Origin: Gemmatimonas sp.
GTDB lineage: Bacteria; Gemmatimonadota; Gemmatimonadetes; Gemmatimonadales; Gemmatimonadaceae
Assembly (NCBI RefSeq): GCF_021298855.1
Contig: NZ_JAJTHI010000002.1
Coordinates: forward strand, 1 to 64,000
DNA length: 64,000 nucleotides
Reading direction: 5' to 3'
Of this stretch, positions 13,729-49,620 are shown in pieces. Below the pieces are notes generated by a model that made no database searches, had not been told where the DNA came from, and saw only the letters and a list, made by a program, of their open reading frames with translations. The position numbers and the translations under genes are program-made. Every line of letters begins with the position of its first letter. Positions within the stretch are counted from its first letter, which is position 1.

Positions 13729-14187
13729 ATGAACGAACCCACCGGCACCCCCGATACCGGCGACCGTCAGGCGCGCATCCTCGACGACCTGCAGGATGCG
13801 GTACAACGCATGCACGTGCTCGCCCGTTCGCCGCGTATCGTCGTGGCGTCCGGAACGCGGCACGCAGGGGCCCGTCCCATGGCGTGGCAGGTCCTGTTCG
13901 AGCGCAGCCTGGGAGCGCACCCGGTGCTGCACTACCGCGGCACCACGGCCATGCGGCTGCAGGCGGTCCTGGTCAACGGGTACGACAGCGAGCCCACGCT
14001 CACGCCGGGGTGGGCATGCGGCCGGTTGGGCGACGCCATGAGTGCGGGACCGGTCGTGCAGGTGTTTCGTGCCGACCGTCTCCCGGACGATGTGAGCCGT
14101 GCGCTCGTTGGCGTGATCGTGTTCGAAGAGGACGGCCTGTCGCTCGCGGGGGTGCGCGCGGTCGTGCAGGAGCTGGGGCTGCGCTGA
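13729..14187 (+). CDS. Hypothetical protein
   Basis: A 152-residue soluble protein with no signal peptide and no motif that I recognise. Residues 14-35 form a likely helix (ILDDLQDAVQRMHVLAR); the rest alternates beta and alpha segments, with WACGRLG and VVQVFRADRLPDD regions. It is divergent from the MFS gene and followed by a 115-bp gap. Codon use is like its neighbours, so it is probably a genuine gene, possibly of limited distribution. Confidence 0.5.
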   Translation: MNEPTGTPDTGDRQARILDDLQDAVQRMHVLARSPRIVVASGTRHAGARPMAWQVLFERSLGAHPVLHYRGTTAMRLQAVLVNGYDSEPTLTPGWACGRLGDAMSAGPVVQVFRADRLPDDVSRALVGVIVFEEDGLSLAGVRAVVQELGLR

Positions 14188-14302: not shown

Positions 14303-14599
14303 ATGCCCCTCGCCCTTCGCCCGCATTTTGGCGCGCACGCCGGCGGACTCGAGCACGCGCTGGCCCTGGCCACCCTCGCGCACGCGGTGCATCCCGTCGG
14401 CGGCCGCCTCGCGGCCGCTGCCGAGCCCGAGTCCTGGGGGCGCCCGAGCAGCGACTTCGAGCAGTTCTCCCGTCTGGTGACCCTGCTGCAGGATGTGGTG
14501 CGGCACCCTGGCTACACCATCGAGGACTTGCGCCGGGAAGGATTCGCCGAGCCGGTGCTGGCGACGCTGGCGGCGCTGGCAGTCGGCCCGTCGATGTGA
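14303..14599 (+). CDS. Short HD-domain-like protein lacking the HD dyad
   Basis: A 98-residue protein. Its second half (LVTLLQDVVRHPGYTIEDLRREGF, then VLATLAALA) closely resembles the stretch around the catalytic HD dyad of small HD phosphohydrolases/RelA-like proteins. There the sequence normally reads LLHDVVEDT..TLEDLRxxGF..EVVxAVxALT. Here His-Asp has become Gln-Asp and the following acidic pair is lost. The N-terminal LALATLAHAVH segment could be the first helix. It is therefore probably an inactive relic or a binding protein. It is shorter than functional family members (about 130-180 residues). Confidence 0.45.
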   Translation: MPLALRPHFGAHAGGLEHALALATLAHAVHPVGGRLAAAAEPESWGRPSSDFEQFSRLVTLLQDVVRHPGYTIEDLRREGFAEPVLATLAALAVGPSM

Positions 14600-14625
14600 G
14601 GCGCGACCGCCGGTGGCGGCGCGAC

Positions 14626-14664
14626 ATGGCGCGGGTGGTACCCTACCGGTACCTTCCGCGCCAT
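14626..14664 (+). promoter_or_regulatory. Palindromic promoter/operator covering the matB start codon
   Basis: A 9-bp outer stem (14626-14634 with 14656-14664) and a 6-bp inner stem GGTACC/GGTACC (14637-14642 with 14648-14653), separated by a 2x2 internal loop, close a 5-nt loop. A possible -10 box TACCTT (14650-14655) lies in the right arm, 7 nt before the matB ATG, whose first two bases lie in the stem. The palindrome could be a repressor operator or a translation-controlling hairpin. Confidence 0.55.
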
Positions 14665-16153
14665 GTCATTGCTGGGACTCCTTGACCGTGCGCTGATCGG
14701 GCGCGCCGAGTCGTCGGCGCTCGAATTCGAAGACGCCGCGGGGCGCCTCACGACGTTCACGTTCGGCGATCTCGAGCGTCGCAGCAATGCGCTGGCGCAG
14801 CAGCTCATCGCTCGCGGCGTGGGGCGCGGGGATCGGCTGGCGTTCTATCTCGCCAACCAGCCGTTCATCATCGAGCTGTGGCTGGCGTGCATCAAGCTGG
14901 GCGTCATCGTGGTGCCGATCAACGTGCTGTACCGCGAGCGCGAGATCGCCCACATCGTGCACGACGCGGCGCCATGCGCCGTGATCAGCGAGGCCGCGCA
15001 GGCTTCGCTGCTGCCGACCGATGTGGCATGGTGGGACGTGGCCGAGCTCATGCGGGAGGCGGCAGGCGCCGCGACCGGGCGTACGCCGGCGCTGAGTGCG
15101 ATGGGTCTCGATGCCGAGACCCCCATGGCGCTGGTGTACACCTCGGGGACCACCGGTGCCTCGAAAGGTGCGGTGCTCACGCACGGCAACTTCGCGGCGA
15201 ATGGTCTGGCGCTGGTGCACGCCTGGGAAATCACGCCCGCCGATCGCTATCTGGCGGTGCTGCCGCTGTTTCATGTGCACGGCCTTGGCAACGGGGTGCA
15301 CGCCTGGCTGCTGAGCGGCTGTCACATGAAGCTCGTGGAGCGGTTCGAGCACGACAAGGCGGCCACCTGGTTTGCGTCGTACCGCCCCACGCTCTTCTTC
15401 GGCGTGCCGACCATGTACGTGCGCCTGCTCGAGCAGCCTGCCGCGGTGGCGCGCGCCATTGGTGAGTCCATGCGCCTGTTCGTGTCGGGGTCGGCGCCGC
15501 TGCCGGCGCCGGTGCTGAGCGCGTTTGCGGAACGCTTCGGGCATGTGATTCTCGAACGGTACGGCATGACCGAAACGCTCATGAACGTGAGCAACCCGTA
15601 TCGGGGAGAGCGCCGCCCCGGCACGGTGGGGCTGCCGCTGGGGCTCACGGCGGTGCGCATCGTGGATGACGCGCTGCAGGATGTGCCCGACGGCACGAGC
15701 GGCGAGCTGCTGGTGCGCGGCCCGAACGTGTGCCGCGGCTACTGGAACCGCCCCGATGCCGACGCGGCCGCCTACGTGCACGGCTGGTTCCGCACGGGCG
15801 ATGTGGGGGTGCGCAGCGCCGACGGGTACATCACCCTGGAAGGCCGTCGCAGTGATCTCATCATCTCCGGCGGCTTCAACATCTATCCGCGGGAAATCGA
15901 GGAGCTGCTGGCGGAGTTGCCGGGCATTGCCGAAGCCGCGGTGGTGGGCGTGCCGGATGCCGTACGCGGCGAAGTGCCGGTGGCGTATGTGGTGTGTGGT
16001 GACGACGTGAATCTCGATACTCTTGCCGGCGACGTGCGCCGCCAGCTGGCGTCGTTCAAGGTGCCGCGCGGTTTCGTGCGCGTGGACGCGCTGCCACGCA
16101 CGGCGCTGGGCAAGGTGCAGCGGCATCTGCTGCCACCGTGGCGCGCCGACTGA
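14663..16153 (+). CDS. matB: Malonyl-CoA synthetase (acyl-CoA ligase, MatB-like)
   Basis: A 496-residue ANL-superfamily ligase with the AMP-binding P-loop YTSGTTGASKG (about 158-168). RYGMTETLMNVSNPYRGER follows at about 299; the SNPY-x-GER variant is typical of MatB malonyl-CoA synthetases. The hinge motif GRRSDLIISGGFN lies at about 393, and the adenylation Lys484 (ALGK) near the C-terminus. It would activate malonate (or methylmalonate) with ATP and CoA in the cytoplasm. A MatC-like permease gene follows after 22 bp, which supports the malonate assignment. No malonyl-CoA decarboxylase (matA) is adjacent. There is no Shine-Dalgarno; see the palindrome at its start. Confidence 0.8.
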   Translation: MSLLGLLDRALIGRAESSALEFEDAAGRLTTFTFGDLERRSNALAQQLIARGVGRGDRLAFYLANQPFIIELWLACIKLGVIVVPINVLYREREIAHIVHDAAPCAVISEAAQASLLPTDVAWWDVAELMREAAGAATGRTPALSAMGLDAETPMALVYTSGTTGASKGAVLTHGNFAANGLALVHAWEITPADRYLAVLPLFHVHGLGNGVHAWLLSGCHMKLVERFEHDKAATWFASYRPTLFFGVPTMYVRLLEQPAAVARAIGESMRLFVSGSAPLPAPVLSAFAERFGHVILERYGMTETLMNVSNPYRGERRPGTVGLPLGLTAVRIVDDALQDVPDGTSGELLVRGPNVCRGYWNRPDADAAAYVHGWFRTGDVGVRSADGYITLEGRRSDLIISGGFNIYPREIEELLAELPGIAEAAVVGVPDAVRGEVPVAYVVCGDDVNLDTLAGDVRRQLASFKVPRGFVRVDALPRTALGKVQRHLLPPWRAD

Positions 16154-16175: not shown

Positions 16176-17423
16176 GTGAGCGCGGCCGCGCTCTCGTTGT
16201 TCGCGCTGCTGCTGGTGGTGGCCGTGAGCCTCACCTCGCGGCTGAACGTGGGCGTGCTGGCCGTGGCGCTGGCCTGGGGCGTGGGTGTGTTCGCGGCCGG
16301 GTTGAAGGTGGAGCAGGTCATGACCCTGTTCCCCTCGTCGCTTTTCCTCACGCTGCTCGGGGTTACGCTGCTCTTCGGCGTGGCGCAGGCCAACGGCAGC
16401 ATGGCGGCCATCACGCACGCCGGATTGCGGCTGCTGCACGGCCATGCGGCGTGGCTGCCGCTGCTGCTGTTCGTCCTGGCCGGGGTGATCAGCACGTCGG
16501 GGCCCGGCGCCATTGCCACGGTGGCGTTGCTGGCGCCGCTGGGCATGGGCATGGCGCACCGCGCGCGCGTGCCGATGCTGCTGGCCGTGCTCATGATCGG
16601 CAACGGCGCCAACGCCGGCAATCTGTCGCCCATCAGCGCCATTGGCGTGCTTGTGCTGTCGCTCATGGAGCAGACCGGGCTCGGTGGCCACGCCGGCGCG
16701 GTCTTTCTGGCCAACTTCACGGCGCACGCCATGGTCGCGCTGGTCGCGTGGGCGCTCTTTGGTGGGCCGGCACTGCGTCATGCGCCGGTGATGACGGATG
16801 CGCTGGCCACGCCGATGCCCTTTGCGCGGCAGCATGTGATCACGCTGGCGGTTGGTGCGACGTGGGTGGCTGCCGTGCTGCTGCTCAAGTTGCCGCCCGG
16901 GCTCACCGCCTTTGCCGCCGCGGCGCTGCTCGTGCTGCTGGGGGTCGGCGACGACAGCGCCATGCTCAAGCAGGTCCCGTGGGCGGTGATCACCATGGTG
17001 TGCGGGGTGAGCGTGCTCATTGGCGTGCTGGAGAAGACGGGCGGCATGGATCTCTTCACGACCCTGCTGTCGCAGCTGGCCACCCCGGCGACGGTGAACG
17101 GGGTCATGGGCGGCGTCACGGGACTCATTTCCACGTACAGCTCCACCTCGGGGGTGGTGTACCCCGCCTTCATCCCCGCCATTCCCGGGCTCGTGGCCAA
17201 ACTTGGCGGTGGCAACCCCGTGGAGATCGCCCTCAGTGTGAACGTGGGCGCCGCGCTGGTGGATGTCTCCCCGCTCTCCACGCTTGGCGGGTTGTGCATT
17301 GCCGCCGCGCCCGAGGGGTGCGATGTCCGGCGTCTGTTCCGGCAACTCCTGCTCTGGGGCTTCGCCATGAGCGTGGTGGGCGCGCTCTTCTGTCAGACCG
17401 TGGTTCCACTGTTCGTGCGGTAA
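16176..17423 (+). CDS. matC: Dicarboxylate carrier, MatC-like malonate transporter
   Basis: A 415-residue polytopic protein with about eleven membrane segments. Its first 150 residues match the layout of the MatC N-terminal family: a short first helix, then FPSSLFLTLLGVTLLFGVAQANG and ISTSGPGAIATVALLAPLG. The second half repeats the GGxTGLISTYSSTSG motif of Na+/dicarboxylate carriers. It would import malonate across the inner membrane for MatB. The GTG start at 16176 removes a spurious Arg-rich extension and begins just before helix 1. Co-transcribed with matB (22-bp gap). Confidence 0.75.
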   Translation: MSAAALSLFALLLVVAVSLTSRLNVGVLAVALAWGVGVFAAGLKVEQVMTLFPSSLFLTLLGVTLLFGVAQANGSMAAITHAGLRLLHGHAAWLPLLLFVLAGVISTSGPGAIATVALLAPLGMGMAHRARVPMLLAVLMIGNGANAGNLSPISAIGVLVLSLMEQTGLGGHAGAVFLANFTAHAMVALVAWALFGGPALRHAPVMTDALATPMPFARQHVITLAVGATWVAAVLLLKLPPGLTAFAAAALLVLLGVGDDSAMLKQVPWAVITMVCGVSVLIGVLEKTGGMDLFTTLLSQLATPATVNGVMGGVTGLISTYSSTSGVVYPAFIPAIPGLVAKLGGGNPVEIALSVNVGAALVDVSPLSTLGGLCIAAAPEGCDVRRLFRQLLLWGFAMSVVGALFCQTVVPLFVR

Positions 17424-17471: not shown

Positions 17472-18623
17472 ATGTCCGCCTCCGACAAAGTGCACCGCTG
17501 GCTCGACCTGCTGGCGTCGCTGCTTTCGCGCCACTACCCCGTGTCCCTTGCCGACTTGCGCCGGGATGTGCCGGGGTACGCCGACGACTCCGTGCAGGAG
17601 GAGAGCCTGCTGCGCACCTTCGAGCGCGACAAGGGAGAGCTGCGCGAGCTCGGCGTGGTGATCGACACCGTTCCCGACGAGAACGGCGTGGGGCGCTACC
17701 AGCTGCGCAAGCAGGACTTCTACCTGCCGTTGCTGCTGGTGTGCGAAGCGCTGCTCCCCAACGAAACCGAGGTGCGGGAGCAGCCGCGACGGGGACGTCC
17801 GGCCGGTCTGTCGGCCGTGCCGTCGCTCGTGCTCACGCCCGACGAGTGTCATGCGCTGCGGCGGGCCGCGGCGCGTATCGTGGCGCTGGGTCACCCCGAG
17901 CTGGCCACCGACGCCACGCGCGCCATGCGCAAGTTGCAGTTCGACCTCGAGGACTTCGTGGCCGAGCTGCCGGCGGCCACGGTGTTGCGTGTGGATGGCG
18001 ACGTCTTCGACGTGCTCACGGAGTCGGTGGCGCTGCGCAAGCGGCTCACGTTCCAGTACCACAGCATGGAGCGCAACGACACGTCCACGCGCACGGTGGA
18101 ACCGTACGGGCTCGTCTTTCTCACCGGTCACTGGTACCTCGTGGCGTTCGATCCGACGGCCAACGGCATGCGGCAATTTCGCGTGAGCCGCATACGCGAG
18201 GCGGTCATGGCGTCGCGACCGCAGCACCCCGACTTCGAGGTGCCCGCCACCTTCGACCTGTCGGCGTACGCCGCCTCGCGGCGTGCCTGGGAGCTGGGCA
18301 GTGGCGAGCAGGAACGCATCATCGTGGCGTTCCGGGGCGACTCGGGGCTGGTGGCGCAGGGGAGCCAGCTGGGTGACGATGCCCCCGAGTGGCCGGGCGA
18401 GTGGTCCGGTGCACTGCCCCCGGCCGACACGCTGTGGCGTGCCTTCAGCGTGCGGCGCCGCGATCCGTTCCTGCGGTGGCTGCTGTCGTTTGCCGGCGAG
18501 GCGCGGCCCGTGGCACCGCCCACCGTGGTGGCGGCGTGGCGCGACCTCCTGGCCGCGACGCGCGCGGCCCAGCTGGACGCTGCGCGCATCACGCCGCTGC
18601 CGACAGCCACGGAGGTGGCATGA
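17472..18623 (+). CDS. WYL-domain transcriptional regulator (PafB-like)
   Basis: A 383-residue regulator: an N-terminal winged-helix segment (about 8-95, with LRTFERDKGELRELGVVID), a central helical linker, and a WYL domain (about 180-250: KRLTFQYHSM, TGHWYLVAFD, FRVSRIREAV), then a WCX-type C-terminal region. The family senses single-stranded DNA or nucleotides through the WYL pocket. Its stop overlaps the ATG of a second WYL gene (ATGA), the same two-gene arrangement as actinobacterial pafB-pafC, which form a DNA-damage activator. No proteasome genes are present here, so the targets are unknown. Confidence 0.75.
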   Translation: MSASDKVHRWLDLLASLLSRHYPVSLADLRRDVPGYADDSVQEESLLRTFERDKGELRELGVVIDTVPDENGVGRYQLRKQDFYLPLLLVCEALLPNETEVREQPRRGRPAGLSAVPSLVLTPDECHALRRAAARIVALGHPELATDATRAMRKLQFDLEDFVAELPAATVLRVDGDVFDVLTESVALRKRLTFQYHSMERNDTSTRTVEPYGLVFLTGHWYLVAFDPTANGMRQFRVSRIREAVMASRPQHPDFEVPATFDLSAYAASRRAWELGSGEQERIIVAFRGDSGLVAQGSQLGDDAPEWPGEWSGALPPADTLWRAFSVRRRDPFLRWLLSFAGEARPVAPPTVVAAWRDLLAATRAAQLDAARITPLPTATEVA

Positions 18624-19585
18624 TTCGCGCCGACGAACGGTTGCAGCGGTTGCTCATGGCCTTTCCGCTCATGGCCGACGAACCCCGGCTCACGCTGGAG
18701 GAGCTGGCGCAGCGGGTGGGTACCGAGGCCAAGGTGCTCACCAGGGATTTCGCGTCGCTCGAACGGTGGGATACGCCCGCCGGCTGGGTAGACACCGTGC
18801 AAGTGTTCATTCAGGGCAGTCAGGCGTCCATGCACTCGTCGCACTTTCGCCGTCCGCAGAAGCTCAACCGCCCCGAGATGCTTGCCCTCGACCTCGGGCT
18901 GGGCATGCTGCAGCGGGAGCTGCCGGTGGACGAGCAGGCGGTCATCACGCAGGCGCGTGCGCATCTGCAGGCCGTGACGGTGCGCCGCGCCGCCAGCGGC
19001 GCCGAGGGACAGCGGCGCGAGGGGACCGTGCAGGCGGAGGGGGCGCCGGAGCCGCAGCTCGCCATGCTGGCCATCCTGCAGACGGCGTTCGAAGCACGTC
19101 TTGTGGTGCAGCTGGAGTACCAGCGCCCCACCGATGCCCAGCCGGGCACGCGGCGCGTGCGCCCGTATGCGCTCGTGCGCGCCGACGCCACGGTGTACAT
19201 GGTGGCGTGGTGCGAGCGCGCCGAGGGGTTGCGCGTGTTTCGCCTCGATCGCGTCACCGGCGCCGTGGCGACGCCCGACGTGTTTCAGGTGCCCGGCGAC
19301 TTCTCACTCGCGCAGGTGCTGCAGCAGGGGCACGTTTTCGCGCGCGATGAGCGGCCGGAGGAAACGCTCGTGGTACGCTACTCACCGCAGGTTGCGCGGT
19401 GGGTGGCCGAGCGCACCGGACGTGCTGTGGCTGCCGACGGGACGCTCGACGTGCCGTATCCGCTGGCCGACGAAGCCTGGGCGGTGCGGCACGTGCTGCA
19501 GTACGGGCCCGACGCCATCGTCCTGTCGCCGGCGAGTCTTCGCGATCGGGTGGTGGCGGTCCTCGACGAACTGCTCGGCGCGTAA
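18620..19585 (+). CDS. WYL-domain transcriptional regulator (PafC-like)
   Basis: A 321-residue protein: N-terminal helix-turn-helix-like region (about 1-60, LTLEELAQRVGTEAKVLTRDFASLERW) and a WYL domain (about 150-230: LVVQLEYQRP, YALVRADATVYMVAW, FRLDRVTGAV), then a WCX-like tail. The start at 18620 gives an ATGA overlap with the upstream paralogue and is preceded by GGAGG, so the pair is translationally coupled and probably works as a heterodimer. It converges on the minus-strand holin-like gene with 15 bp between. Confidence 0.75.
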   Translation: MIRADERLQRLLMAFPLMADEPRLTLEELAQRVGTEAKVLTRDFASLERWDTPAGWVDTVQVFIQGSQASMHSSHFRRPQKLNRPEMLALDLGLGMLQRELPVDEQAVITQARAHLQAVTVRRAASGAEGQRREGTVQAEGAPEPQLAMLAILQTAFEARLVVQLEYQRPTDAQPGTRRVRPYALVRADATVYMVAWCERAEGLRVFRLDRVTGAVATPDVFQVPGDFSLAQVLQQGHVFARDERPEETLVVRYSPQVARWVAERTGRAVAADGTLDVPYPLADEAWAVRHVLQYGPDAIVLSPASLRDRVVAVLDELLGA

Positions 19586-49533: not shown

Positions 49534-49620
49534 CACCACGGAAAACACGGAATCTCACGGAAGGACACGGAGGAACAGCGGTTCCGTGTGCTTCCGTGAG
49601 ATTCCGTGTTTTCGGTGGTG
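49534..49620. repeat. Long near-perfect inverted repeat between convergent genes
   Basis: Left arm (49534-49576) consists of CACGGAA-type units and is mirrored by the right arm (49581-49620), about 40 nt each with only a few mismatches or bumps. They can form a single long hairpin with a short loop. It lies between susD (+) and the LVIVD gene (-) and could end both transcripts; unit length is about 9-10 bp. Confidence 0.8.

Follow-up and report, generated by a model that had tools for sequence, protein, structure and literature searches.

The window, by which we mean the whole stretch of 64,000 nucleotides of Gemmatimonas sp. DNA that was analysed, contains a malonate gene pair, matB and matC, with two co-directional genes upstream and a pair of putative regulator genes downstream. 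Between the stop codon of the 98-residue open reading frame (at 14599) and matB lies a two-tier palindrome that covers the predicted promoter and the start codon. The features of the locus are:

13729 to 14187, plus strand: open reading frame of 152 amino acids, syntenic in all 15 neighbourhoods compared
14303 to 14599, plus strand: open reading frame of 98 amino acids directly upstream of matB, no family found
14623 to 14667, no strand: two-tier palindrome with its axis at 14645, which is -18 relative to the A of the ATG
14625 to 14634, no strand: left outer half-site CATGGCGCGG, invariant in seven genomes
14637 to 14642, no strand: left inner hexamer GGTACC
14648 to 14653, no strand: right inner hexamer GGTACC, overlapping the -10 box
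14650 to 14655, plus strand: -10 box TACCTT of the predicted leaderless promoter, 7 nt before the ATG
14656 to 14665, no strand: right outer half-site CCGCGCCATG, with the start codon inside it
14663 to 16153, plus strand: matB, malonyl-CoA synthetase homologue of 496 amino acids with AMP-binding domains
16176 to 17423, plus strand: matC, dicarboxylate carrier (MatC_N, PF07158, 3e-29)
17472 to 18623, plus strand: PafB-like WYL regulator (PF13280; PafBC 6sj9, E 3e-22), the nearest candidate regulator gene
18620 to 19585, plus strand: PafC-like WYL regulator (HTH_PafC, WYL and WCX; 6sj9, E 7e-23)

The identities given to matB and matC in an earlier, sequence-only reading of this DNA are supported by their domains and by the best solved match of MatB, the malonyl-CoA synthetase 4fuq (E 6e-98); the best NCBIfam model for MatB is PRK07514, malonyl-CoA synthase, at 459 bits, below that model's cut-off of 558. 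The 152-residue gene, matB and matC occur together in 15/15 neighbourhoods (16 stretches were fetched and one was left out), and in several relatives the 152-residue gene adjoins matB directly. Both upstream genes are close to matB and run in the same direction. The 98-residue frame is present in six of the seven genomes that have the palindrome, our own included, and also in G068; dependence of the palindrome on this gene was rejected, since G061 has the palindrome without the gene. The same reading had stated that no GntR/MatR regulator adjoins the pair, and this holds for the 16 products that were scanned in the span from 2.8 to 28.4 kb (part of the frames there, MatB and MatC included), none of which is of GntR type. 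A search of the own genome for malonyl-CoA decarboxylase (PF05292) gave no match, and the control of that search was also without any match. Absent from the earlier reading was the PafB/PafC-like WYL pair just downstream of matC. Its PafB-like gene is found in 7/7 palindrome genomes but in 21/30 genomes of the genus overall, and we therefore rejected the pair as a specific marker of the palindrome, as it is present also where the palindrome is absent.

The palindrome, first described as a near-perfect one of 9+6 bp, is real but larger than that description allowed. Its arms (14623-14642 and 14648-14667) are 20 nt each and complementary at 18/20 positions (90%) around a 5-nt loop, with a perfect outer part of 11 bp (GACATGGCGCG/CGCGCCATGTC) and a perfect inner part of 6 bp (GGTACC/GGTACC). 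It spans -40 to +5 relative to the matB ATG, and the right arm contains the -10 box TACCTT, the string CCGCGCC and the first bases of matB. The palindrome is well above chance expectation: the outer pattern matches once in the window against 0.00 expected from 100 shuffles, and inverted repeats of at least 18/20 with a loop of at most 30 nt occur twice in the window against none in each of 20 first-order Markov simulations, with nine more in 400 kb elsewhere in the genome (11 in 464 kb, the matB palindrome included). Among 79 TANNNT-N5-7-ATG sites in these 464 kb, the inverted repeat at matB ranks first by far with a score of 15, the next being 8, where a background of 3000 random 55-mers has a 99th percentile of 9 and a maximum of 13.5. 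The RNA fold z score at the palindrome is -3.9 over 101 nt and -7.0 over 55 nt. Elsewhere in the window, at 49544-49610, an inverted repeat that is perfect over 20 bp around a loop of 27 nt lies between or overlaps the ends of two plus-strand reading frames, and it too is single copy in the own genome.

Because the matB palindrome is single copy in the own genome, a dispersed repeat element was rejected. Searches of the own genome with the outer-arm pattern and with GGTACC-N4-7-GGTACYTT found no promoter site besides matB, the sole other match (C64:66268) lying inside a coding frame, while a looser pattern gave 12 matches against 5 for its control, those besides matB being without the GGTACC pair. 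A regulon sharing the site was likewise rejected, there being no second promoter site in this genome, and none of the genomes searched has the full site anywhere but at matB.

At the promoter itself the earlier description was accurate: TACCTT stands at -13 from the ATG at 14663, and just before this ATG no Shine-Dalgarno-like stretch was seen. TANNNT leaderless promoters of high-GC bacteria carry their -10 box some 12 bp ahead of the start codon and have no Shine-Dalgarno sequence (PMC3160421). In a sample of 464 kb of the own genome (the window plus 400 kb; 300 open reading frames chosen by codon-position GC, 1009 candidate ATG or GTG starts), TANNNT peaks at -12 with 21 occurrences, against 7 at -13, 6 at -11 and 0-7 at other positions, so that leaderless promoters look common in this genome. 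Moreover, six sister species that are without the palindrome (L043, L044, L045, L048, L049 and L053) have TTGACC-N16-TANNTT, then 6-7 nt, and then the same matB ATG. On the strength of this sister-species promoter and of the -12 peak, matB transcription most likely starts at the ATG, which would place the left arm outside the matB mRNA. The second of two options offered by the sequence-only reading, a hairpin within a leaderless mRNA that hides the start codon, is thus contradictory as worded, because an mRNA that starts with its AUG, as a leaderless one does, leaves no room for the left arm; compensatory change, which such a hairpin might have left, was seen in 0/18 pairs. The clear -12 signature speaks for leaderless transcription being common in Gemmatimonas. 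Our literature search for leaderless transcription in this genus found no description; the available parts of the main text of PMC3160421 do not name Gemmatimonas, and those of PMC10783764 do not describe leaderless genes of Gemmatimonadetes.

We also considered a divergent leaderless promoter on the minus strand and rejected it, as the mirror of the -10 box is without its TT in 7/7 genomes. The palindrome genomes do not have the TTGACC of the sister species, and the axis at -18 falls inside the spacer between -35 and -10, where a protein might remodel and activate a promoter that has no good -35 element; MerR-like regulators bind at a comparable position. We hold this reading to be improbable. 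Leaderless-type promoters in the own-genome sample show no -35 enrichment, so the absent -35 is a general property of the sampled promoters rather than a special trait of matB, and a palindrome reaching +5 would be expected to hinder the polymerase.

The palindrome is confined to part of the genus. MatB was found at E <= 1e-100 in 25 of the 30 genomes in our genus set, 24 of them with a readable 5' end (L058, without its 5' end, was dropped), and the palindrome is present at matB in 7/24 upstream regions (G000, G076, G061, G081, G075, G071 and G048). The conservation of the arms in relatives, on which the earlier proposal had staked itself, is therefore real within these seven. The other 17 comprise one compact form (G068), six plain promoters and ten with neither, and in 6/10 of the last matB begins at or almost at the upstream stop codon. 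L046, L047, L050 and L051 do not have the promoter segment of the sister species, and their matB ATG directly adjoins or overlaps the stop codon of the 152-residue gene, which suggests promoter loss with operon fusion. The compact palindrome of G068 (locus L040) has outer half-site centres 19 bp apart together with a TTGACC; it could have arisen by deletion between the GGTACC pair, or it could be an ancestral form. On a MatB tree of 27 rows (the 24 plus three outgroups) one change is enough to account for the palindrome rows relative to the other labelled ones (support 76/94). This count leaves out 13 unlabelled rows, and in the tree L042 and L052, neither of which has the palindrome, share an unresolved region with the palindrome rows. 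In the wider family MatB occurs in 23/59 genomes. Setting aside G000 and G048, 20 of these have a readable 5' side, and none of the 20 shows such a palindrome; in L019 another inverted repeat, 9 bp long, spans -54 to -29. With one base relaxed, the outer pattern matches the matB locus of the same seven genomes out of 179 in the wider family, and sites away from that locus in eight others, all through the relaxed base alone.

Aligning the upstream regions, as the sequence-only reading had proposed in order to separate an operator from an RNA stem, brought out half-sites conserved as sequence and no compensatory change. Between the four lineages (ungapped, 17 sequence pairs) the left outer half-site has an identity of 1.00, whereas the 50 bp immediately upstream reach 0.27; the value is 0.97 for the right arm beside the ATG, 0.87 for the -10 part, 0.73 for matB coding DNA, 0.58 for the loop and 0.50 for the inner left part. 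The outer half-site centres lie at -33 and -2 in 7/7 genomes, a spacing of 31 bp that is kept although the loop varies, and the inner left GGTACC is present in 7/7 but moved by 1 bp in 4/7.

These data bear directly on a different hairpin, one formed by the arms in mRNA that reads through from the 152-residue and 98-residue genes. By masking the matB AUG there, it would restrict translation of matB to the gene's own leaderless mRNA. All seven palindrome genomes are predicted to form a strong hairpin here (z -3.7 to -7.3; 84.9% of cells paired across the seven sequences), the upstream genes are close and co-directional, and pairing would tolerate the 1-bp shift of the inner hexamer. We nevertheless regard it as unlikely. 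None of the 18 pairs changed on both sides, a count of low power since 10/18 are invariant, and the outer spacing is held at 31 bp where a loop would be free to vary. Moreover, the bases opposite the TT of the -10 box are GT, TT, CC or GG and never AA, of which only GG pairs fully, by wobble, and G071 keeps a stem mismatch (CCGCGCG, symmetry lost at one base) with no compensation. Comparison with known RNA families gave none at the palindrome; the only matches were to two miRNA models and scored far short of the gathering thresholds. Very unlikely, in our view, is a mutational relic, in which a template switch copied the promoter and start segment in inverted orientation and repeated correction keeps the arms alike with no function. 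The segment from the -10 box to the ATG does occur without the left arm in relatives, and the left arm may therefore be the newer; but differences between the arms persist, the TT of the -10 box was never copied, the GGTACT and CCGCGCG changes of the right arm were not copied to the left, and the left half-site is 100% identical over four lineages.

Taken together, we favour with moderate confidence the reading that the matB palindrome is a putative operator over a leaderless promoter, bound by a dedicated regulator that blocks matB-matC transcription. It is preferred because the half-sites are conserved as sequence, the outer spacing is fixed and the left arm lies outside the predicted mRNA, and repression is preferred because of the position over -40 to +5. 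According to this model transcription of matB from its leaderless promoter would start at the A of the ATG or right beside it, and the palindrome would act as DNA over the region bound by RNA polymerase. The centres of CATGGCGCGG and CCGCGCCATG would stand about three helical turns apart, and the inner hexamers, 9-12 bp from the outer half-sites and from each other, would give four sites on roughly one face of the helix. We infer a regulator that probably binds as one dimer or as two, and that would keep the promoter closed presumably until malonate or a signal derived from it is present; control of malonyl-CoA supply through MatB and MatC in response to malonate presumably follows from the gene families. 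Of the two options in the sequence-only reading it is thus the dimeric repressor over the promoter that gains, since the half-sites kept both their sequence and their outer spacing as the loop and the flanks changed, although no regulator was found. Some observations weigh against the operator. The 1-bp shift of the inner left hexamer in 4/7 genomes and the change in G071 are not what one would expect of a strict four-site operator, no second genomic site defines a regulon, and 17/24 matB upstream regions are without the palindrome. In addition, the -10 box and the ATG constrain the right arm, so that an RNA model, too, would make a left arm complementary to it appear conserved. The two roles might also be combined, the palindrome serving as DNA operator of the leaderless promoter while the arms in read-through RNA lock the AUG, so that matB is expressed only from its own operator-controlled leaderless transcript; we give this little credence, and if true it would be a compact case of a leaderless gene insulated jointly at the DNA and the RNA level. 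The operator reading, for its part, offers a clean and testable putative operator in a phylum with little regulatory work.

Several known systems resemble parts of this arrangement. In rhizobia MatR, of the GntR family, controls matABC, and similar to that system malonate genes would here stand under an operator, whereas no GntR gene was found nearby and no matA lies next to matBC. The palindromic DdrO/RDRM-type operators of Deinococcus, which lie over or beside the promoters of genes, many of them leaderless, are alike in that placement; they differ in sequence, in their shorter palindrome and in serving a multi-gene regulon, in contrast to the matB-only site described here. The matB promoter agrees with the TANNNT leaderless promoters (PMC3160421) in its TACCTT at -13 and its lack of a Shine-Dalgarno sequence, and differs in the palindrome, an addition that is not described in the available parts of that paper. 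Finally, BrxR, a dimeric WYL repressor, binds 11-bp inverted repeats with a 5-bp spacer (PMC9122601), and this likeness makes the PafB/PafC-like pair downstream of matC a candidate, the only local one and nothing firmer, for the regulator of the putative operator. The likeness lies in inverted repeats bound by a WYL protein; the matB outer half-sites differ from the BrxR boxes in being 21 bp apart, and the local WYL proteins, PafB/PafC-like, are candidate binders.
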